A stretch of DNA of 64,000 nt, taken from contig NZ_JABSSX010000008.1 of NCBI RefSeq assembly GCF_013280495.1, forward strand, positions 1 through 64,000, in the 5' to 3' direction. Below are positions 4,315 through 15,675 of the stretch, piece by piece; position 1 is the stretch's first letter, and each line of letters begins with the position of its first letter. The notes beneath the pieces are model-generated. The model had not been told where the DNA came from, ran no database searches, and saw only the letters and a list, made by a program, of their open reading frames with translations. The stretch is from Brevibacterium permense. GTDB lineage: Bacteria > Actinomycetota > Actinomycetes > Actinomycetales > Brevibacteriaceae. The position numbers and the translations under genes were made by a program.

Positions 4315-5010
4315 GTGGGCGAGATTCTGTCCGCCAACAGGATTGAGGGTGTCGTTCGCAAGGACGTGCCCGAGCGCGTGATATCCCGACTCCCGATCTA
4401 TCTGCAGACCGTCGAGACGATTGCCGCCACCGGCCAGGACACAGTTTCGTCGGAGGACCTTGCCGCCCGCAGCGGTGTGTCCCCGTCGATTCTGCGCAAA
4501 GACCTGTCCCAACTGGGGCGGTCCGGAACCCGTGGGGTCGGCTACTCCTGTCCGGAGCTGGCAGCGACCCTGCGGACGTTCCTCGGCCTCGACCGCGACC
4601 GCCGCGTCGCCATCATCGGCGCCGGACGTCTCGGTTCGGCGCTGGCCGACTACGCCGGATTCCGTCGGCGCGGCCTGCGCCTGACCGCCGTTTTCGACAT
4701 CGACGAGGAGAAGATCGGCACCTCCATCGGCGCCTTGACCGTCTCTTCCCTGGACGACCTTCCCGCCTGGTCCGAACACATCGACCTGGTGGTCATGGCC
4801 GTGCCCGCAGCCGCGGCACCCGCGGCGGCCCAGAAGGCCGTTGAAGCAGGTGTGCGCGGCATTCTCAACTTCTCACCCACCGTGCTCGACGCACCGGATA
4901 CCGTGCGTGTCCATCAAGTCGACTTGGCCAGTGAGCTGCAAGTACTCGCATACTATTCGGCGCTGGACACGGCACCGCTCAACCCTGGTTTTGAGGAGCA
5001 CAGGAATTGA
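4315..5010 (+). CDS. rex: Redox-sensing transcriptional repressor Rex
   Basis: DNA-binding repressor that reads the NADH/NAD+ ratio and releases DNA when NADH rises. Residues about 20-85 form the winged-helix domain (SGVSPSILRKDLSQLG, GTRGVGY). Residues from about 95 form the Rossmann NAD(H) domain with IIGAGRLGSALADY. The C-terminal domain-swapped helix is present. The GTG start at 4315 has GAAGGAG 12 bp upstream. The stop overlaps the hemA start by 3 bases, so Rex is made from the same transcript as heme enzymes, as in Streptomyces. A Rex operator was looked for upstream but not confidently identified. Confidence 0.94.
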   Translation: MGEILSANRIEGVVRKDVPERVISRLPIYLQTVETIAATGQDTVSSEDLAARSGVSPSILRKDLSQLGRSGTRGVGYSCPELAATLRTFLGLDRDRRVAIIGAGRLGSALADYAGFRRRGLRLTAVFDIDEEKIGTSIGALTVSSLDDLPAWSEHIDLVVMAVPAAAAPAAAQKAVEAGVRGILNFSPTVLDAPDTVRVHQVDLASELQVLAYYSALDTAPLNPGFEEHRN

Positions 5011-7484
5011 CTCTCTTGGTTCTCGGCATTTCACATCAGTCGGCTCCGATCGACATGCTCGATCGGTTGGCCTTCGGCGCCGGTGAGGTCGGCGCTCTGC
5101 GACGGGACGCCTTGGCCGGAGAGAACATCGAGGGACTCGCCGTGCTCTCGACGTGCAATCGTCTCGAACTCATTGCCGACGTCTCCGCCTTTCACGGAGG
5201 ACTGGCCGACCTCGGCAACGCGCTCGTGTCGTCGATCGACAAAGAATGGTCCGATATCGCCGGGCACTTCTACGCCCACTATGACCACCAGGCCATGGAG
5301 CACCTGCTCAAGGTCGCCTGCGGGCTCGACTCCATGGCCATCGGCGAAGCCCAGATACTCGGTCAGCTCCGGACGGCGTTCACGGCATCGCAGTCGGACA
5401 AGGCACTGACCTCCGAACTCTCCCAGACATTGCAGCAAGCGCTGCGTGTGGGCAAGCGCGCCCATTCGGAGACCGACCTCGGAGACGTCGCGCGGTCCCT
5501 GTTCGGCGCAGGCATCGAAGCATCGGCCGCGCACATCGGGTCCCTGCGTGCCGCGAATGCACTCGTCATCGGCGCCGGAGCCATGTCGGGGCTCGTTGTC
5601 TCCGGACTGCACAAGGAAGGCGTCGCCCACATCACCGTGCTCAACCGGACGCTCGACAAGGCCGAACGCCTCGTCGCTGAGGTGGGCGGACGTGCCCGCG
5701 AACTCACCCCGCGCATCATGGCCGAGGAGATCGCCGACGCCGACCTCATCGTCTCCTGCACGGGTGCCCGCGGAGTCGTCGTCAGCCGCGACGACATCGT
5801 CGCCGGACTCTCGCAGAACCCGAAGGGCGCAGCGAACAAGGCCTTCATCGACCTCGCTCTGCCGCACGACATCGACCCCAGCGTCCGCGAGTTCGAACAT
5901 GTCGCCCTCTTCGGCCTCGGCGAGATCCGCGAACTCCTGCGCGGCTCCGACAAGGAACGCGACGCGAAGGTCGTGAGCACTGTCGAAGAGGTGCGCTCCA
6001 TCATCGCCGACGAGCTGGAGAACATCGCCACCGGCAACAAGGAGCGCTCGGTCGCTCCGACCGTGACCGCTCTGCGCTCCCATGCCAAAGATGTGCTCGC
6101 CTCCGAGACCCAGCGACTGGAGAAGAAGCTCGGTGACTCCGTCGACGAGAAGGCCTTCGCGGAGATCCGAAAGTCCCTGCATCGGGTGGCGGAGAAGCTC
6201 ATCCACACCCCGACCGTGAAGGTCAAGGAACTGGCTGTGACCGAATCCGAGGTCGACTACGCTCAGGCGCTCATGCAGCTCTTCGACCTGCCGGTCAATA
6301 AGGTCGCCCACGCCAAGACCGCTCCGGAGACGAAGGTCGCGAAGGCCGCCAGCGCGCATCATGTCGAGGCCGACGGCATCCGCCCGGTCGCCGATCACAC
6401 CCTCGACATCGTCGAACCCGAACACTTCACCGGCCGCACCGTGCGTCTGGGCACCCGCCGATCACAGCTGGCTCGGTCCCAGTCCACGGCGATCGCGCAC
6501 CAGATCGCGGCTCTGACCGGCTGGCGCGTCGAGATCGTCGAGGTCGTCACCGAGGGAGATGTCAACATGTCGCCTCTGGCCGGTTTCGGCGGCACCGGAG
6601 TCTTCGTCTCCGCCGTCCGTCAGGCCCTCCACCAGGGCAAGATCGATCTGGCCGTGCACTCGCTCAAGGACCTGCCCACCACCCCCGAGGCGGGAATCCA
6701 AATGGCAGCCATCCCACCGCGCGTCGACCCGGCCGATGTCCTCATCGGCCGTGACGGGCTGAGCCTGAACGACCTGCCCTCCGGGTCCGTCATCGGCACT
6801 GGTTCGCCGCGTCGGGCCGTTCAGCTGCGTGCCGCACGTCCCGATATCGAGGTCCGCGGAGTGCGCGGAAACGTCGACACCCGCATCGCCCATGTCCGCG
6901 ACGGCCGTCTCGACGCAGTCGTCCTCGCGGCCGCCGGAGTGCGTCGCATCGGGCGCCTGGCCGAAGCCACCGATTCGCTCAACTTCGATGTCATGCTCCC
7001 GGCCCCGGGCCAGGGAGCCCTGGCGATCGAGACGCGCAGCGCCGACAGCGCCTTCGCCACCACCGCGGACATCCTCGACGGCGACGCCGAGGTGCGGGCG
7101 GCCCTGCGCCGGATCCACGACCAGACGACCGACCTCGCCGTGACCTGCGAGCGCGCGATCCTCTCCCGTGCCGAAGCCGGCTGCTCGGCCCCGATCGGCG
7201 CGCTGGCGAAGATCGAGGGCACCGAGTTCATCGTCGACGCCGTGATGGCCGATGACGACGGCAAGCTCGCCCGCACGCGGCAGAGCACCGAGCTGCCCGC
7301 CCTGCTCGACGTCGACTGGAGCAGCACCGGCGAGCAGCAGCTGTCGGTGACCGCGAAGGAACTCGCCCGTATCGCCGACGAACTCGGCACCGCAGCGGCC
7401 GAGGATCTTCTGGGTCGCCTCGGCATCGACCCGGCAGTGAGCGCCGAACACCTCACCCCCGTCAAGGCTCAGGAGCAGGGATGA
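5007..7484 (+). CDS. hemA: HemA-HemC fusion: glutamyl-tRNA reductase / hydroxymethylbilane synthase
   Basis: One uninterrupted 825-codon frame holds two heme-pathway enzymes. Residues 1 to about 430 are glutamyl-tRNA reductase: the nucleophile Cys50 in STCNRLEL, GEAQILGQ at 113-120, the NADPH-binding VIGAGAMSG from 187 and the C-terminal helical dimer domain. Residues about 431-477 are a linker. Residues 478 to about 815 are hydroxymethylbilane synthase: RLGTRRSQLA, catalytic Asp555 in VHSLKD, GTGSPRR at 597-603 and the dipyrromethane-cofactor Cys726 in AGCSAPIG. The TTG start overlaps the rex stop, and the stop overlaps the hemD start. Both halves keep their key residues, so both activities (first and third committed steps of C5 heme synthesis) are expected. 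Confidence 0.93.
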   Translation: MTLLVLGISHQSAPIDMLDRLAFGAGEVGALRRDALAGENIEGLAVLSTCNRLELIADVSAFHGGLADLGNALVSSIDKEWSDIAGHFYAHYDHQAMEHLLKVACGLDSMAIGEAQILGQLRTAFTASQSDKALTSELSQTLQQALRVGKRAHSETDLGDVARSLFGAGIEASAAHIGSLRAANALVIGAGAMSGLVVSGLHKEGVAHITVLNRTLDKAERLVAEVGGRARELTPRIMAEEIADADLIVSCTGARGVVVSRDDIVAGLSQNPKGAANKAFIDLALPHDIDPSVREFEHVALFGLGEIRELLRGSDKERDAKVVSTVEEVRSIIADELENIATGNKERSVAPTVTALRSHAKDVLASETQRLEKKLGDSVDEKAFAEIRKSLHRVAEKLIHTPTVKVKELAVTESEVDYAQALMQLFDLPVNKVAHAKTAPETKVAKAASAHHVEADGIRPVADHTLDIVEPEHFTGRTVRLGTRRSQLARSQSTAIAHQIAALTGWRVEIVEVVTEGDVNMSPLAGFGGTGVFVSAVRQALHQGKIDLAVHSLKDLPTTPEAGIQMAAIPPRVDPADVLIGRDGLSLNDLPSGSVIGTGSPRRAVQLRAARPDIEVRGVRGNVDTRIAHVRDGRLDAVVLAAAGVRRIGRLAEATDSLNFDVMLPAPGQGALAIETRSADSAFATTADILDGDAEVRAALRRIHDQTTDLAVTCERAILSRAEAGCSAPIGALAKIEGTEFIVDAVMADDDGKLARTRQSTELPALLDVDWSSTGEQQLSVTAKELARIADELGTAAAEDLLGRLGIDPAVSAEHLTPVKAQEQG

Positions 7485-9085
7485 ACAGCGAACCGACAAC
7501 GGGCCAGGTGCAGCCGCGCCGACTCCTGCCGGCAGCCCCACGAGTCGTCTTCATCGGCAGCGGACCCGGCGAATCGGGTCTGATGACGATGCGCGGCGCC
7601 GAGATCCTCGCCACCGCCGAAACCGTCGTCTACGACGCCGATGTGCACTCTGAGATCGTCACCGCCTATGTGCCGCAGGCCGCAACGCTCATCGATGCCG
7701 CCGACCTCGGAGTCGCCGCCTCAACCCGGGGCCGCCGCATGGCCGAACTCGCCCGCCCGGACAAGACCGTAGTGCGGCTGAGCTCAGACGACGGAATCAT
7801 CTTCACCACCACGACTTCGGAAGCCGGAGTCTGCCGCAAGGAACAGGTCGAAGTCGAAATCGTGCCCGGAGTCGGACTCTCCGCCTCGACGGCGGCCTTC
7901 ACCGGAACGGCTCTGACGACCAACCGCGTCCGGTCGGTGCGCTTCATCGAAGCCGGACCGCAGACCCATGTCGACGTCTCCCGCCACAGGAACACGACCC
8001 ATGTGCTCACCGGCAGCGCAGCCGCCCACGAACAGGCCATCGAAGCCCTGCTCGCGGACGGCTGGGACGAGGACACGAAGGTTCTCCTCGGGTGGGGGAT
8101 CTCCACCATCGAACAGACGAGTGTGGAGACGACTTTGCAGCAGGCGCTGTCCATGGCGCAGACAGGTTCGGATCGTATGGTGGTGATCATGGGGCAGGGA
8201 GTGGAATCCAGAGGAGAGCTCAGCTGGTTCGAATCCAAACCGCTCTTCGGCTGGCAGGTGCTTATCCCGCGGACGAAGGAACAGGGCACCTCCACGGCAG
8301 AGGCTCTGGCCGAACTCGGCGCCGTCGGCACCGTAGTGCCGACGATTGCCGTTCAGCCGCCGCGCACACCGACCCAGATGGAGAAGGCGATCCGAGGCCT
8401 CGTCGACGGATCCTACGAATGGGTCGGATTCACTTCGGTCAACGCCGTGCGTGCTGTGCGTATGTGGTTCGAAGACTTCGGACTAGACTCCCGTTCGATG
8501 GCCGGCGTCAAGGTCGCCGCCGTGGGCGGTCGCACCGCGGCAGCGCTGGTCGACTGGGGGATCACTCCCGACCTCGTCCCCGACGGGGAGCACTCCGCAC
8601 GCGGCCTGGCCGCGGCCTGGCCGGACTTCGTCGATGACATCGACCCGATGAACACGGTTCTCCTGCCTCGTGCCGATATCGCCACCGAGGTGCTTGTGGC
8701 CGGGCTGCTGGAGAAGGGGTGGGACCCCGACGACGTCACCGCCTACCGCACCGTGCGCGCCTCCCCGCCGCCGGCTCCGATCCGCGAGTCGATCAAGGCC
8801 GGCGACTTCGACGCCTTCCTCTTCACCTCCTCATCGACGGTGCGCAACCTCGTCGGCATCGCCGGCAAACCCGCCCCCACCTCCGTGATCTGCTGCATCG
8901 GCCCGGCAACGGCGAACACCGCAGCCGAACACGGACTGCGCGTCGACGTCCTCGCCGAGGAAGCCAACCTCACCTCGCTTATCGACGGTCTCGTCGAATT
9001 CGCACTCACCCAGCGCGCCGAAGACGTGGAAGCCGGGATCTCCCCGCAGCGTCCGAGTCAGAAGCGCCGCAGAAAGAAGGCCTGA
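7481..9085 (+). CDS. hemD: Uroporphyrinogen-III synthase with N-terminal degenerate methyltransferase domain
   Basis: The C-terminal half (from about residue 255, [13 protein letters not shown]) is HemD, which closes and inverts hydroxymethylbilane to uroporphyrinogen III. The N-terminal 250 residues resemble uroporphyrinogen-III C-methyltransferase: [16 protein letters not shown] and [13 protein letters not shown] are kept. The SAM-binding loop GGDP-x-x-FGRG is replaced by [14 protein letters not shown] at about 101-114, so methyltransferase activity is doubtful. The extreme C-terminus is basic (KRRRKKA). The gene starts with ATG overlapping the hemAC stop (ATGA) and sits 1 bp from hemB. SUMT-HemD fusions are common in actinobacteria; the worn SUMT part is the odd point. 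Confidence 0.88.
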
Positions 9086-9086
9086 C

Positions 9087-10115
9087 ATGTCATTGGTTCC
9101 CGGAACCGTCCGTCCCCGTCGGCTGCGGTCGACCCCGGCCCTGCGTCGCCTCGTCTCCGAGGTGCGCCTCCACCCAACCGAGCTCATCCTGCCGATGTTC
9201 GTCAAGGAGGGTCTGAACGAACCGCTGCCTCTGGGCGGAATGCCCGGAGTCGTCCAGCACACACTCGACTCCCTCCTTGAGGCCGCGCGGGAGGCCCTCG
9301 CGGCCGGAGTCGGCGGGCTCATGCTCTTCGGCATCCCCGAACACAAGGATGAGATCGGCTCACAGGCCGATGATCCCGACGGCATCCTCAACCGGGCGCT
9401 GTCGCTGCTGGCCGACGAATTCGGCGAGGACACTGTGATCATGGCGGACCTGTGCCTCGACGAATTCACCTCCCACGGTCACTGCGGTGTCCTCGACTCG
9501 ACCGGAGCCGTGGACAACGACGCGACCCTCGAACGCTACGCGTCGATGGCGGTGGCGCAGGCCCGCGCGGGCGCTCACGTGCTCGGCCTGTCCGGCATGA
9601 TGGACGGTCAGGTCGCCTACTGCCGCGAAGCTCTCGACGCCGCCGGTTTCACCGATACCGTCATCATGGGCTACACCGCGAAGTACGCCTCCGCGTTCTA
9701 CGGTCCCTTCCGCGAAGCCGTCGATTCCGAACTCAAGGGCGACCGCAAGACCTACCAGCAGGATCCTGCCAACGGCCGTGAGGCGATGCGCGAACTCGGC
9801 CTCGACCTCGCCGAAGGCGCCGACGTGGTCATGGTCAAGCCCGGCCTGCCCTACCTCGACGTGCTCGCCGAGGTCGCTCGCGAGTCCATCGTTCCGGTGT
9901 GGACCTACCAGGTCTCGGGCGAATACGCGATGATCGAATTCGCGGCCGCTGCCGGAGCCATCGACCGGGAGAAGGCGATCGAGGAGTCCCTCATCGCCTT
10001 CAAACGTGCCGGATCCGATGCGATCCTCACCTACTGGGCCACCGAGGTCGCCCAGCGCCTCCAGGTGGAGGCTGCCGGTCACATGTCCGACCGCGACGCC
10101 CGCGGAGGCCGATGA
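9087..10115 (+). CDS. hemB: Delta-aminolevulinic acid dehydratase (porphobilinogen synthase)
   Basis: Condenses two 5-aminolevulinate molecules to porphobilinogen, step 2 of the pathway, filling the gap between the two halves of the upstream fusion. Both Schiff-base lysines are present: [15 protein letters not shown] and [10 protein letters not shown]. The metal-site segment reads [14 protein letters not shown], in which the middle Cys of the three-Cys zinc site is Asp, so metal use may be intermediate between the Zn and Mg types. Length (342 aa) is normal. Confidence 0.95.
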
Positions 10116-10582
10116 TGACCGAGCCTCGCTGGCTCTCGGCGGTCGACCAGAGAGCCTGGCGCAGCTACCTCAACGGCTCTCAGCTGCTCAGCACACAGCT
10201 GGACAAGGAGCTGCGTGAGAAGCACGGCATCGGCCTGCCCGAATACGAAATCCTCGTACGTCTGTCCGAACACGACGACCGGACGATGCGAATGGCGCTG
10301 CTGGCCACCGATACGACCATGTCCCGATCCCGGCTGACCCACAGCGTCGCCCGAATGGAGAAGCGCGGACTTCTCGAGCGTTCCGCCATCCCCGAGGACG
10401 GCCGTGGGGTCAACTGCGTGATGACCGAGGCCGGATGGCAGCTGCTGCGGGCCGCGGCCCCGGACCATGTCGCCGGAGTCCGCAGCCACCTCGTCGATCT
10501 CCTCGACCCCGAGGAGATGGAGACCCTGGGGCGGATCTTCACCAAAGTCTTCGACCATATGACAGACATCGACGGCTCCTGA
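10115..10582 (+). CDS. MarR-family transcriptional regulator
   Basis: A 155-aa winged-helix protein. The helix-turn-helix is in LLATDTTMSRSRLTHSVARM and the wing in EKRGLLERSAIPEDGRG, as in MarR proteins. ATG codons at 10112 and 10115 are adjacent; 10115 has the better spacing from GGAGG at 10104-10108. It overlaps the hemB stop and is followed 69 bp later by hemL, so it is embedded in the heme operon. Ligand and targets are unknown; control of heme synthesis or of heme stress is an inference from location. Confidence 0.85.
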   Translation: MTEPRWLSAVDQRAWRSYLNGSQLLSTQLDKELREKHGIGLPEYEILVRLSEHDDRTMRMALLATDTTMSRSRLTHSVARMEKRGLLERSAIPEDGRGVNCVMTEAGWQLLRAAAPDHVAGVRSHLVDLLDPEEMETLGRIFTKVFDHMTDIDGS

Positions 10583-10651: not shown

Positions 10652-12013
10652 ATGACGACAGCAGAGACGAACGGTCACACCACCGATCGGTCCGCCGCCC
10701 TCTTCACCCGCGCCGAGGCGGTCATCCCCGGCGGAGTGAACTCCCCGGTCCGCGCGTTCAAGGCCGTCGGCGGCACCCCCCGTTTCATCACCGAGGCGAC
10801 TGGTGCGTGGCTGCGCGACGCCGACGGCAACGACTACATCGACCTCATCGGATCTTGGGGTCCGATGATCATGGGCCACTCCCGCCCCGAGGTCGTCGCC
10901 GCCGTCCAGGAAGCCGCCGTCAAGGGATTCTCCTTCGGCACCCCGTCGACCGGTGAGGTCGAACTCGCCGAGGAGATCGTTCGCCGCGTCGATCCCGTCG
11001 ACCAGGTCCGTCTCGTGTCCTCGGGCACCGAGGCGACGATGTCGGCGATCCGTCTGGCCCGCGGTTACACGGGACGGTCCAAAGTCGTGAAGTTCGCCGG
11101 CTGCTACCACGGTCACGTCGACTCGCTGCTGGCCCAGGCCGGCTCCGGACTGGCCACGTTCTCTCTGCCCGACACCCCCGGAGTCACCGGAGCCCAGGCG
11201 CAGGACACGATCGTCGTCGACTACAACGACGCCGCCGGTCTCGAAGCCGTCTTCGCCGAACACGGTGAGGACATCGCCTGCGTCATCACCGAGGCCAGCC
11301 CCGGCAATATGGGCGTCGTGCCTCCCCGCGACGGTTTCACGAACACCATCCGCCGGCTGACCAAGGCCCACGGTGCGCTGATGATCAGCGACGAAGTGAT
11401 GACCGGCTTCCGCGTCTCCGCCGCCGGCTGGTACGGCTATGAGTCCGAGACTCTCGGCTACCCGGAGGGCCCGGCCGACCTGTTCACCTTCGGCAAGGTC
11501 ATGGGCGGCGGCTTCCCGGCAGCGGCCTTCGGCGGTCGCGCCGAGATCATGGCTCACCTCGCCCCCTCCGGCCCCGTCTACCAGGCCGGAACGCTCTCGG
11601 GCAATCCGGTGGCCACCGCCGCCGGTCTGGCCACGCTCAAACTGACGACCGAACTCGACGTGTACTCGCACATCGGTCGTGCCGCGGACAGCCTGCGCCC
11701 GGCAGTCGCCTCAGCGCTGGAGGCTGAGGGCGTCGCCCACGTCATCCAGTCGGCGAACTCGATGTTCTCCGTGTTCTTCACCGACACCGACGTGACGAAC
11801 TACGACCAGGCACGGGCTCAGAACGTCGACCGCTACACCGCCTTCTTCAACGCCATGCTCGATCAGGGCATCCATATGCCCCCGAGCGCGTTCGAAGCCT
11901 GGTTCCTGTCCTACGCCCACACCGATGAGATCCTCGACCGGATCATCAGCGCACTGCCAGCCGCGGCCAAAGCCGCGGCCGCGGTTCCGGAGGCCGGGAA
12001 GGCGCAGTCGTGA
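10652..12013 (+). CDS. hemL: Glutamate-1-semialdehyde 2,1-aminomutase
   Basis: PLP enzyme turning glutamate-1-semialdehyde (the HemA product) into 5-aminolevulinate. [13 protein letters not shown] near residue 24 and the PLP-lysine segment [18 protein letters not shown] near residue 278 are diagnostic. The ribosome site AGAGGAG lies just before the ATG. The 3' end overlaps the next gene by 4 bp. With hemAC, hemD and hemB it completes the route from glutamyl-tRNA to uroporphyrinogen III; later steps (hemE, coproporphyrin-branch genes) are not in this window. Confidence 0.96.
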
Positions 12014-12651
12014 CCACCATCCACCTCGTCCGCCACGGCGAAGTCGACAACCCCGACGGCATCCTCTACGGACGTCTGCCGCATTTCGGTCTCACCGAAC
12101 GGGGACACGAGATGGCAGTGCGCGTGGCCGAGCACTTCCACGCTGCGCCCACTCGTCCGGTCGAACTCGTCGCCTCCCCGCTGCTGCGGGCACAGCAGAC
12201 GATTCGTCCGCTGTCGAAGTCTCTTGACCTGCCGGTCTTCGACGACGACCGGGTCATCGAGGCGGCGAATTCCTTCGAGGGACAGAAGCTGGATGCTCGT
12301 CGGCTGGCCGAGCCGAGGAACCTGGTGCGCCTCTACAACCCTCTCACTCCGTCCTGGGGAGAGCCGTACAAGCAGATCGTGCTGCGCATGCGGGCCGCGA
12401 TGGCCAGTCTGAGAGCCAAGCTCGACCTCCACGGTCCGGACGCCGAAGGAGTCATCGTCTCCCACCAGTTGCCGATCTGGATGACGCGCCTGTCGGGGGA
12501 GGGACGCTCACTCGTCCACGACCCGCGCAGACGCGAATGTGACCTGGCTTCTATCACCAGTTTCACATTCGATTCCTCCACACTGGTGTCCGTGAGTTAT
12601 GAGAGCATCTGTGCCGATCTGCAGCCGGGCACCGCGGTGGCGGGAGCATGA
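12010..12651 (+). CDS. Histidine phosphatase (phosphoglycerate mutase family)
   Basis: The catalytic motif LVRHGEV is at residues 6-12, the second arginine lies in SPLLRAQQT, and the second catalytic histidine is in VIVSHQLP near residue 155. Length (213 aa) fits the branch-1 histidine phosphatases. Such a gene regularly sits between hemL and the cytochrome c maturation genes in actinobacteria, but its substrate is unknown. It overlaps its neighbours on both sides by 4 bp, so it is part of the operon. Confidence 0.88.
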
Positions 12652-13247
12652 GTTTCGGACGCCGTTCCCTCAACCGTCGGGCCCTCTTCACCTCGGCGCT
12701 CGCCGCCGGAACGGCCCTGGCGCTCAGCGCCTGCAGCGAGAACGATGAGCTGGCCGATCAGGCCGGATCCGACCAGGGGTACGTCTCCGGTTCGGGAGTC
12801 GTCTCGCAGGTGGCGGTCGAGGACCGCGGCGACCCCCTCGATCTGAGCTTCGAGACCCTCGACGGGAAGTCCACGTCTCTGGCCGATCTGCGTCCCACCC
12901 CGGTCGTCGTCAACCTTTGGTACGCGGCGTGCCCGCCGTGCCGGAAGGAAGCCCCGGACCTGAAGTCCGTGTCCGAGGAATTCGGGGACAAGGCCCAGTT
13001 CATCGGCGTCAACGTCCGCGACCAAGAGGCTGCGGCCAACGCGTTCATCCAGAACTACCAGGTGCCGTACCCGAACATGCTCGATTCGAACGGTGAGATG
13101 GTGTCTCTGCTCTCCGGAGTCCTGCCCCCGCAGGCCACCCCGTCGACGGTGGTCCTCGACGCGAAGGGCCGGGCCGCGGCCAGAGTCGTCGGTGAGATCG
13201 ATGCCTCGACTCTCAAGGGACTCATCGAGGACGTGCTGGCCGAGTGA
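12648..13247 (+). CDS. resA: ResA/TlpA-type thiol-disulfide lipoprotein
   Basis: Extracytoplasmic thioredoxin-fold reductase that keeps apocytochrome c heme-binding cysteines reduced. The N-terminus has a basic segment, a hydrophobic stretch and a lipobox ending LSAC near residue 27 (LALSAC), so it is probably a lipoprotein. The redox motif is WYAACPPCRKE near residue 90. The cis-proline region is QATPSTVV. It is followed directly by ccdA, the membrane electron donor, with a 4-bp overlap. Confidence 0.9.
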   Translation: MSFGRRSLNRRALFTSALAAGTALALSACSENDELADQAGSDQGYVSGSGVVSQVAVEDRGDPLDLSFETLDGKSTSLADLRPTPVVVNLWYAACPPCRKEAPDLKSVSEEFGDKAQFIGVNVRDQEAAANAFIQNYQVPYPNMLDSNGEMVSLLSGVLPPQATPSTVVLDAKGRAAARVVGEIDASTLKGLIEDVLAE

Positions 13248-14008
13248 GTGGACTCGGGGCGGACTTCGCCCAGACCGTTCTCTCCGGTCCGCTGCTGCTG
13301 GCTGCCGGCGCAGCGGCCCTGGCCGGACTCGTCTCGTTCGCCTCCCCGTGTGTGCTGCCCCTGGTTCCCGGCTATGTCGGGTACGTCACCGGGCTGTCCG
13401 GTTCATCGCTGAGGGACAAGCAGACGTGGCGAGTGGTCGTGGGCATCAGCCTGTTCGTCCTCGGCTTCACCGTCGTCTTCGTGCTGCTGGGGACCAGCTT
13501 CTCCGCGCTGGGAGCGCTGTTCTCCCAATGGCAGTCGGTCATCCTCCGCGTCCTCGGCGTCATCGTCGTCCTCGCCGGTTTCGTGTTCATGGGCGGATTC
13601 GGTCTGCTGCAGAACGAACGTCGCATCCGTGCCAGACCGAAGGCCGGGCTCTGGGGTGCACCGGTGCTCGGAGCGACCTTCGCCCTCGGGTGGGCACCCT
13701 GTGTGGGACCGACCCTGTCGGCGGTGCTGAGCATGTCGGTGAGCTTCGGCGGTGACGGGATGATCTGGCGCGGAGCACTGTTGGCCTTCGTCTACTGTCT
13801 GGGCCTGGGCATCCCGTTCATCCTCCTGGCGCTGGCGATCCACAAGGGCGCGGGGCGACTCGTCTGGGTGCGCAAGCATCAGACCGCGATCGTGCGGGCC
13901 GGGGGCATCATGCTCATCATCCTCGGTGTGCTCATGGCCAGCGGCGTATGGAACATGTGGATGACCTCTCTGCAAGGTCTCATCAATGGATTCGAAGTGG
14001 TGATCTAG
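13244..14008 (+). CDS. ccdA: Cytochrome c biogenesis membrane protein CcdA
   Basis: Six-helix membrane protein that carries electrons from cytoplasmic thioredoxin to ResA. The two redox cysteines lie in FASPCVLPLVPGY (first helix) and LGWAPCVGPTLS (fourth helix). GTG start at 13244 overlaps the resA stop by 4 bp. Length (254 aa) is standard. Confidence 0.95.
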   Translation: MSGLGADFAQTVLSGPLLLAAGAAALAGLVSFASPCVLPLVPGYVGYVTGLSGSSLRDKQTWRVVVGISLFVLGFTVVFVLLGTSFSALGALFSQWQSVILRVLGVIVVLAGFVFMGGFGLLQNERRIRARPKAGLWGAPVLGATFALGWAPCVGPTLSAVLSMSVSFGGDGMIWRGALLAFVYCLGLGIPFILLALAIHKGAGRLVWVRKHQTAIVRAGGIMLIILGVLMASGVWNMWMTSLQGLINGFEVVI

Positions 14009-15675
14009 TGGCGGGCTCAACCGAAGGCTCGGAGAAGACGCAGTCGAAATCGGGTGCGAAGACGACGGCGAAGCAGGGAGACAAGCCTGCAGTGAAGTCG
14101 ACCGTGAACCAGCCGCAGCTCGGGTTCATCGGCATGTGCCGGTGGGCCTGGACCCAGCTGACGACGATGCGTGTGGCACTGATCCTCCTGCTCATCCTCG
14201 CCCTCGCCTCGATCCCCGGATCTCTGCTGCCGCAGCGCATCCAGGACCCGGGCCGGGTGAACACCTTCCTGGAGAACAACGGTGCCTGGGGACAGTTCCT
14301 CGACACCATCCAGATGTTCGACGTCTACTCCTCTGTCTGGTTCTCCGCGATCTACCTGCTGCTGATGATCTCCCTCATCGGCTGCATCATCCCGCGGACG
14401 AAGCAGCACTGGAAAGCGATGCGCTCGTCCCCGCCCAAAGCACCGAGGCGGCTGTCCCGGATGCCCGGATACGCCGCCTTCACCTCGGCGCAGGCAGACG
14501 CAGAGACCCGTGAGGATGCGGATGAGGCGTTCCTCGACGCAGCGGAGGCCCGGCTGAAGAAGTCCGGGTACCGCATCAACCGGCAGTCCGATCACATCGC
14601 CGCCGAACGTGGCTATCTCCGCGAGACCGGCAATCTCGTCTTCCATATCGCGCTGCTCATGGCGACCCTGACGATGGCGATCGGATCGCTGTTCGGCTAC
14701 GAAGGTCAGCGCATCCTCGTCGAGGGGGAGACGTTCTCGAATTCGCTGGTCTCCTACGATTCCTTCGAACCCGGCTCCTACTACGATGCCGACAATCTGC
14801 CGGACTTCCGGCTCAAGCTCGACTCCTTCACCTCCACCTTCGACGATCAGGCGGCGGGCAACCAGTTCGGTCAGCCGCGCACCTTCGATGCGAAGGTGAC
14901 GACGACGGCGGACGGGAAGACCGAATCGCACGTCCTCAAGGTCAACGAGCCGGTGCGCGTGGGCGGCGTCGGCGTCTATCTCACCGGCAACGGCTACGCC
15001 CCCGAAGTAACCGTGCGTGATGCGAAGGGCGATATCGTCCAGTCCGGTCCGCAGGTGTTCATCCCGGACGGCGGGGACCCCGGATACACCTCCGAGGGCG
15101 TCATCAAGGTCCCGGACTCGGCCGGCACGCAGATGGGCTTCGTCGGGGTGTTCCTGCCGACGGCCGCACAGAATGAGGACGGTGAGCTGATCTCGAGCTT
15201 CGCCGAGCTGCGCAACCCCTACCTCGTGATGAGCGGTTACACCGGCGACCTCGGCCTCGATTCCGGAGTCCCGCAGTCCGTGTACTCCCTCGACGCGGAG
15301 AACATGACGGAGATGACCGATGAGTCGGGCAACCCGCTCGTCATCCAGCTCGCCGAGGGGGAGACGCAGAAGCTGCCGAACGGCGGTTCGGTGACCTTCG
15401 ACGGAGTCAAGAAGTACATCGCCGTCGACATCTCCCAGGACCCGACACAGGCCCTCATGCTCATCAGCGCGATCCTCGTCCTGGCTGGGCTCGGCCTGTC
15501 CCTGTTCATTCCCCGCCGACGCGTATGGGTGCGGATCAAGAACGGCGACGCCGAGGTGGCCGCTCTGGCCCGCGGTGAGGATCCGATGGTCGAACGCGCC
15601 GTCGATGGCCTGGTCAAGGACCTGCGTGAGCCGGAACCCGATGAGGGTGAGCATGGTGACGATGACGAAAGATGA
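14008..15675 (+). CDS. resB: Cytochrome c biogenesis protein ResB
   Basis: Large subunit of the System II heme-export and cytochrome c synthetase complex (ResBC/CcsBA). Hydrophobic helices near residues 50-75, 110-130 and 205-230 precede a long extracytoplasmic domain and a last helix near 485-510. The GTG start at 14008 overlaps the ccdA stop codon by one base; an upstream in-frame ATG would lie deep inside ccdA. The first 35 residues are Ser/Lys/Thr-rich and cytoplasmic. Length (555 aa) is normal for actinobacteria. Confidence 0.92.
   Translation: MAGSTEGSEKTQSKSGAKTTAKQGDKPAVKSTVNQPQLGFIGMCRWAWTQLTTMRVALILLLILALASIPGSLLPQRIQDPGRVNTFLENNGAWGQFLDTIQMFDVYSSVWFSAIYLLLMISLIGCIIPRTKQHWKAMRSSPPKAPRRLSRMPGYAAFTSAQADAETREDADEAFLDAAEARLKKSGYRINRQSDHIAAERGYLRETGNLVFHIALLMATLTMAIGSLFGYEGQRILVEGETFSNSLVSYDSFEPGSYYDADNLPDFRLKLDSFTSTFDDQAAGNQFGQPRTFDAKVTTTADGKTESHVLKVNEPVRVGGVGVYLTGNGYAPEVTVRDAKGDIVQSGPQVFIPDGGDPGYTSEGVIKVPDSAGTQMGFVGVFLPTAAQNEDGELISSFAELRNPYLVMSGYTGDLGLDSGVPQSVYSLDAENMTEMTDESGNPLVIQLAEGETQKLPNGGSVTFDGVKKYIAVDISQDPTQALMLISAILVLAGLGLSLFIPRRRVWVRIKNGDAEVAALARGEDPMVERAVDGLVKDLREPEPDEGEHGDDDER

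Follow-up and report, generated by a model that had tools for sequence, protein, structure and literature searches.

Fusions between enzymes of tetrapyrrole synthesis are already known as a kind. A CobA-HemD fusion is found in 3448 of 5525 Actinobacteria, while HemC-CobA-HemD fusions in Euryarchaeota and a HemA-HemB fusion in one Sulfolobus assembly are described in the excerpts used here of the same survey, which started from archaeal proteins (PMC11237513). In Corynebacterium glutamicum, hemA and hemC are neighbouring, co-regulated genes repressed by HrrSA, and the excerpted text names them as separate genes (PMC3353115). The locus considered here lies in a 64,000-nucleotide stretch of Brevibacterium permense DNA (NZ_JABSSX010000008.1, positions 1 to 64,000; the window), where glutamyl-tRNA reductase (HemA), the pathway's first enzyme, and hydroxymethylbilane synthase (HemC), the builder of its four-ring precursor, share a single frame at 5007..7484 on the forward strand, the strand of all features given below.

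Like CobA-HemD, this is a natural fusion of two tetrapyrrole genes, and the hemD gene of the window is itself of the CobA-HemD type; that fusion, however, pairs uroporphyrinogen III synthase with the next enzyme, a methyltransferase, and includes neither HemA nor HemC. The HemC-CobA-HemD and HemA-HemB proteins are likewise fusions inside the HemABLCD stretch of the pathway, but have other partners and other hosts, and HemA-HemB is described, in the excerpts, from a single assembly whereas the Brevibacterium fusion is genus-wide. Solved structures of HemA (1gpj, 4n7r) and HemC (1pda, 1ah5, 5h6o) are matched by the respective halves in family domains and catalytic residues; these are structures of separate proteins, whereas Brevibacterium has one chain with a leader-containing linker. 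No published HemA-HemC fusion was found in the open-access literature, and this pairing is moderately surprising. Protein databases may list the fusion already under automatic names, and annotation pipelines may name the protein after one half only.

The fused frame and its distribution

The frame comprises 825 codons from a TTG start. A sequence-only reading had proposed that it encodes HemA and HemC in one protein of about 88 kDa, and this is borne out by Pfam, by both equivalog models, by the orthologous frame throughout the genus, and by a computed mass of 87.2 kDa. The HemA part, residues 1-428 (5007..6290), has the GlutR_N (6-156), NADPH-binding (Shikimate_DH, 176-309) and dimerisation (GlutR_dimer, 329-428) domains. 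The HemC part, residues 479-825 (6441..7481), has the dipyrromethane-cofactor domain (Porphobil_deam, 479-683) and the C-terminal domain (Porphobil_deamC, 711-754), and all five matches are above their cut-offs. The equivalog models for hemA (TIGR01035, 337.2 bits against a cut-off of 209.55) and hemC (TIGR00212, 286.9 against 164) are both passed, while the narrower HemA model NF000744 is narrowly missed (416 against 429). Pfam finds no HemD or CobA domain in the 825-residue chain.

The key residues named in the sequence-only reading are all present and invariant across 24 aligned rows. Catalytic Cys50 (codon 5154..5156) lies in the motif STCNR and aligns with Cys50 of Escherichia coli HemA, while catalytic Asp555 (6669..6671) and Cys726 (7182..7184), where the dipyrromethane cofactor is attached, are placed by alignment of HSLKDLP and GCSAPIG with HSMKDVP and GCQVPIG of 1ah5. 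The protein of 1ah5 is E. coli HemC, in which the equivalents of the latter two are residues 84 and 242, with catalytic and cofactor-binding roles. The remaining cysteines of the chain are at 105, 251 and 714. Searches with PF05201 and PF01379 find one copy each of hemA and hemC in the genome, so the fused chain must supply both activities if both are needed. The start codon is well supported: a Shine-Dalgarno-like GAGGAG (4993..4998) stands 8 nucleotides 5' of the TTG, which overlaps the stop codon of the preceding rex gene (ATTGA), and both GAGGAG and TTG are conserved in all 24 named Brevibacterium loci.

These 24 loci come from separate records and carry the fusion at 80-99% identity, all with a TTG start; a twenty-fifth locus, from Caldivirga, has a HemA match only. 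Divergent Brevibacterium sequences are 51-60% identical to that of the window. Of 57 Brevibacterium genomes, 56 have an uninterrupted frame across the HemA/HemC junction, among them two (G036 and G048) with HemC broken past it. A junction profile built from 13 rows (A1), covering the HemA dimer domain, the linker and HemC, gives a single stop-free match in 50 of the 57. Six others (G001, G013, G015, G036, G054 and G055) give separate profile matches because of a long linker, and each can be read without a stop from a HemA motif up to where HemC starts, five of these loci beginning inside HemA. The locus of G037 is divided between two contigs, HemA lying at the edge of the first and the linker plus HemC at that of the second. 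As the frame is kept throughout the genus despite varying linker length, it is not a product of chance; that the fused frame is real is nearly certain, and it is an old gene fusion.

The sequence-only reading had also held that HemA and HemC are separate in almost all bacteria, and the survey bears on this for Actinomycetota. Profile A1 matched 328 of 396 genomes drawn from the order (35 of them Brevibacterium), 330 of 394 from the class (2 Brevibacterium) and 218 of 296 from the phylum (1 Brevibacterium), the three draws sharing some genomes. Among the best 150 or so rows of each search there is no stop-free HemA-into-HemC match outside Brevibacterium, although a fusion with a long linker could escape detection among lower-ranked rows; the statement thus stands for the matches listed from this phylum alone. 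None of 86 outside loci that were read, chosen for long frames or for matches into or across the linker, has a fused hemA-hemC: the two genes are in different frames in 57, share a frame interrupted by two or more stops in three (L148, L149 and L151), and are without a nearby HemA match in 16. In the other ten (L133-L137, L139-L142 and L144) a single stop codon is all that separates hemA from an in-frame hemC; five of these are from genus g114, with one TAG counted. This near-fusion state exists in several lineages, and the completed fusion is seen only in Brevibacterium. Long open frames were rejected as a sign of fusion elsewhere; they are misleading in GC-rich genomes and may overrun stops, as in G913 (680 + 1 + 317) and G036.

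The linker and the origin of the fusion

The linker of the window protein spans residues about 429-478, within one or two residues of the 431-477 given by the sequence-only reading, whose other residue numbers and coordinates hold equally well. It has a variable part, residues 429-453 (6291..6365), and a conserved part, residues 454-472 (6366..6422), with the sequence EADGIRPVADHTLDIVEPE. Residues 447-477, across the old HemA/HemC boundary, form the predicted tryptic peptide AASAHHVEADGIRPVADHTLDIVEPEHFTGR, in which the R-P bond is normally uncut, and most Brevibacterium loci carry PVADHTLDVVEP or PVADHTLDIVEP before HemC.

A survey of hemA/hemC architecture in Brevibacteriaceae, proposed in the same reading, sets the fused genomes of Brevibacterium beside the three other genera of that family (G057, G058 and G059) in which the genes are separate, in different frames, and overlap by 4 nucleotides (GTGA in G058, ATGA in G057 and G059). 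The hemC of G058 starts at a GTG 7 nucleotides after a good ribosome-binding site, GGGAGG, and the N-terminus of its product, VSDHTFDIVEP, is matched by the conserved linker stretch VADHTLDVVEP; HemC of G057 and G059 starts near RLGTRRS and is without this leader. By this homology, the linker's second part derives from the leader of the once separate HemC, and Val461 (GTC, 6387..6389) marks the old start codon. The variable first part is probably the old HemA C-terminal tail, as weak similarity to the tail of G058 suggests. Since the HemC start in G058 matches the leader, HemC probably had this leader already when the tail of HemA was fused to it. From an ancestor like G058, with shifted frames, at least one insertion or deletion in the hemA tail would be needed.

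Midpoint-rooted trees of 37 HemC rows and 33 HemA rows are consistent with this history. The 14 Brevibacterium rows included form one group (99/98 for HemA, 100/99 for HemC), and G058 is the sister of Brevibacterium (fork support 100/99 for HemA and 95/81 for HemC, where its branch is long). Most simply, the genes fused once, in the ancestor of Brevibacterium. A likely unfused intermediate, with overlapping genes and the leader already present, survives in the sister genus.

The old start has since changed in most loci. Among 44 Brevibacterium loci with the motif, the codon at this position is GTC in 23, GTG in 13, GTT in 5 and GTA in 3, so that it is no longer a start codon in 31 (the count omits the motif variants L028, L029, L030 and L036, and some loci, such as L038 and L050, share a genome). 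No ribosome-binding site at a normal distance was recognised by eye in the printed 24 nucleotides before the old start; GAGG is frequent upstream, but about 17 nucleotides away. Among the Brevibacterium loci no internal start near HemC is conserved.

Ratios of nonsynonymous to synonymous substitution (dN/dS) were computed with our own Nei-Gojobori script for close, mid and divergent groups of 9, 11 and 8 from 38 aligned rows. The leader has the lowest ratio of the regions compared: 0.03 in the close group, where HemA has 0.09, the variable linker 0.14 and the HemC core 0.08, and 0.09 in the mid group, where these regions have 0.17, 0.29 and 0.12. In the divergent group, whose ratios are rough with synonymous differences of about 0.5 per site, the values are 0.39 for HemA, 0.15 for the leader and 0.22 for the HemC core. 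Residues 473-478 have 0.43, 0.18 and 0.74 in the close, mid and divergent groups, and the HemC tail (761-825) has 0.25, 0.31 and 0.68. In the close and mid groups at least, these ratios suggest a translated linker, and with the old start lost in most loci and the linker mostly under purifying selection, one translated polypeptide is likely. The distance from the HemA end to the HemC start, measured in 25 of 48 loci, is 51-170 residues. The linkers of L028, L030, L036, L037, L044 and L048 are long and rich in Ala, Ser and Thr (119-170 residues in the five of six that were measured), a variable stretch within a probably essential enzyme.

Function of the fused chain

HemA dimerises through its C-terminal domain and HemC is a monomer, from which a dimer carrying two HemC units on tethers is expected for the fusion. 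The explanation that we find somewhat probable as a whole is a bifunctional polypeptide of glutamyl-tRNA reductase and hydroxymethylbilane synthase, in which a flexible tether joins two independent enzymes made in a 1:1 ratio. The sequences show that hemA and hemC, neighbours in a rex-hemA-hemC-hemD-hemB cluster, merged into one frame, most simply once, and that the HemC start codon and ribosome-binding site then decayed in most loci. The product would be a homodimer held together by its HemA dimerisation domains, each C-terminus bearing an autonomous HemC on a flexible tether. The two enzymes would act independently, since the HemL and HemB steps intervene; these steps and a tether whose length is not kept make direct channelling between the active sites unlikely, and the range of linker lengths argues against a rigid channel. 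The effect would be obligatory 1:1 synthesis and a shared fate of the pathway-entry and porphobilinogen-consuming enzymes, so that the capacity to use porphobilinogen would stay in step with the capacity to make 5-aminolevulinate. The fixed ratio, which the sequence-only reading had suggested, follows if internal starts are unused, and it is conditional on that.

Several observations weigh against this explanation. The HemC half has a frameshift at about residue 669 in G048 (L049, a one-contig genome), perhaps a sequencing error, and in G036 it is broken beyond the junction by a stop adjoining a run of 239 N. The GTG still present at the old start in 13 of the 44 loci, together with an in-frame GTG at Val479 of the window gene, makes weak internal starts possible. 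In the divergent group the variable linker has a dN/dS of 0.99, with synonymous sites near saturation. An AlphaFold prediction from 24 rows is unusable (mean predicted local distance difference test score, pLDDT, 36.4), so the geometry of dimer and tether is taken from the enzyme families. Lastly, hemA and hemC were already adjacent, and the gain from fusing them is not obvious. A possible, though doubtful, alternative is that the fusion is a frozen accident: where the hemA stop and hemC start overlapped, a nearby insertion or deletion joined the genes, both enzymes tolerated it without functional gain, and once the ribosome-binding site and start codon of hemC had gone, the fusion was hard to split. 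The 4-nucleotide overlaps in the three other genera, the ten single-stop pairs among the outside loci, the single origin in the trees, and the little-constrained length and composition of the linker in the divergent group all agree with it. Against it stands the retention of the fusion, with no re-split copy, across 56 of 57 species genomes over strong divergence, but a frozen accident itself also predicts no re-splitting.

An improbable reading, raised in outline by the sequence-only reading as the tethering of a metabolon, is that of a metabolon scaffold, in which the HemA dimer would seat HemL in its cleft, the tethered HemC and its leader would bind HemB or HemD or bring both close, and intermediates would pass locally from glutamyl-tRNA to uroporphyrinogen III. 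HemA-HemL complexes are reported from E. coli, Chlamydomonas and Acinetobacter (PMC6399207, in the excerpts used), the cluster also contains hemD, hemB and hemL, and the leader is strongly conserved; but other steps lie between those of HemA and HemC, tether length ranges from 51 to 170 residues, and the leader is older than the fusion, being present in G058. If true, a single complex would cover the route from glutamyl-tRNA to hydroxymethylbilane, and porphyrin flux would be balanced in a new way, through a fixed 1:1 ratio of the first and fourth enzymes. That the fused frame yields two proteins in the cell, by cleavage of the linker or by internal initiation, is very improbable: the long, Ala/Ser/Thr-rich linkers of several species and an in-frame ATG or GTG near the HemC start in some loci would suit it, but the replacement of the old start codon in 31 of 44 loci, the lack of a normally spaced ribosome-binding site by eye in the 24-nucleotide stretches, and the purifying selection on the linker in the close and mid groups speak for one chain. 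An artefact of assembly or sequencing, to which the HemC breaks in G048 and G036 might point, has next to no probability and was rejected; the window itself has no such break, the same frame recurs in the 24 named loci, and the junction is intact in 56 of the 57 genomes.

Heme-triggered degradation of HemA has reportedly been shown in Salmonella, where Cys170 is the heme ligand. The sequence-only reading had proposed that turnover of this kind would remove HemC along with HemA; although the N-terminal MTLL is shared, the column of E. coli Cys170 is Ile in the fusion, which speaks against a Salmonella-type heme ligand and against the proposal. Heme-bound HemA is degraded by Lon and ClpAP (PMC6399207), and corynebacterial control of hemA is reported to be transcriptional, via HrrSA and ChrSA (PMC10991733, PMC3353115), as the excerpts have it. 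In those parts of the literature examined, no report of heme-triggered HemA proteolysis in an actinomycete was found.

Gene neighbourhood and significance

All 24 named Brevibacterium loci have the order rex-hemAC-hemD-hemB. In the window, rex (4315..5010) encodes a redox-sensing repressor and is syntenic in all 24, and hemD (7481..9085) is a separate gene whose start overlaps the fusion stop (ATGA). The hemD product has the two domains of the CobA-HemD type, but its methyltransferase half is far under the CobA cut-off (TIGR01469, 94.8 against 185 bits) and, judged by this score, may be a diverged or inactive CobA. The sequence-only reading had placed HemL and HemB just downstream, and both are there, preceded by hemD: hemB (9087..10115, Pfam ALAD) and hemL (10652..12013), a class-III aminotransferase gene (Pfam Aminotran_3) named from its family and position. 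Between these two is a frame for a MarR-family regulator (9899-10582), the longest form of which overlaps the hemB end; it is a candidate regulator of the heme cluster. Downstream of hemL, at 12648-15675, are genes for thioredoxin-like, DsbD_TM and ResB proteins; this set next to the heme cluster probably serves cytochrome c maturation.

What distinguishes the Brevibacterium locus is that a pathway-entry enzyme is fused to that of a non-adjacent step, and this throughout the sampled genus. It makes testable, in species such as Brevibacterium linens, whether tethering non-consecutive enzymes, or fixing their ratio, helps to control toxic porphyrin intermediates.

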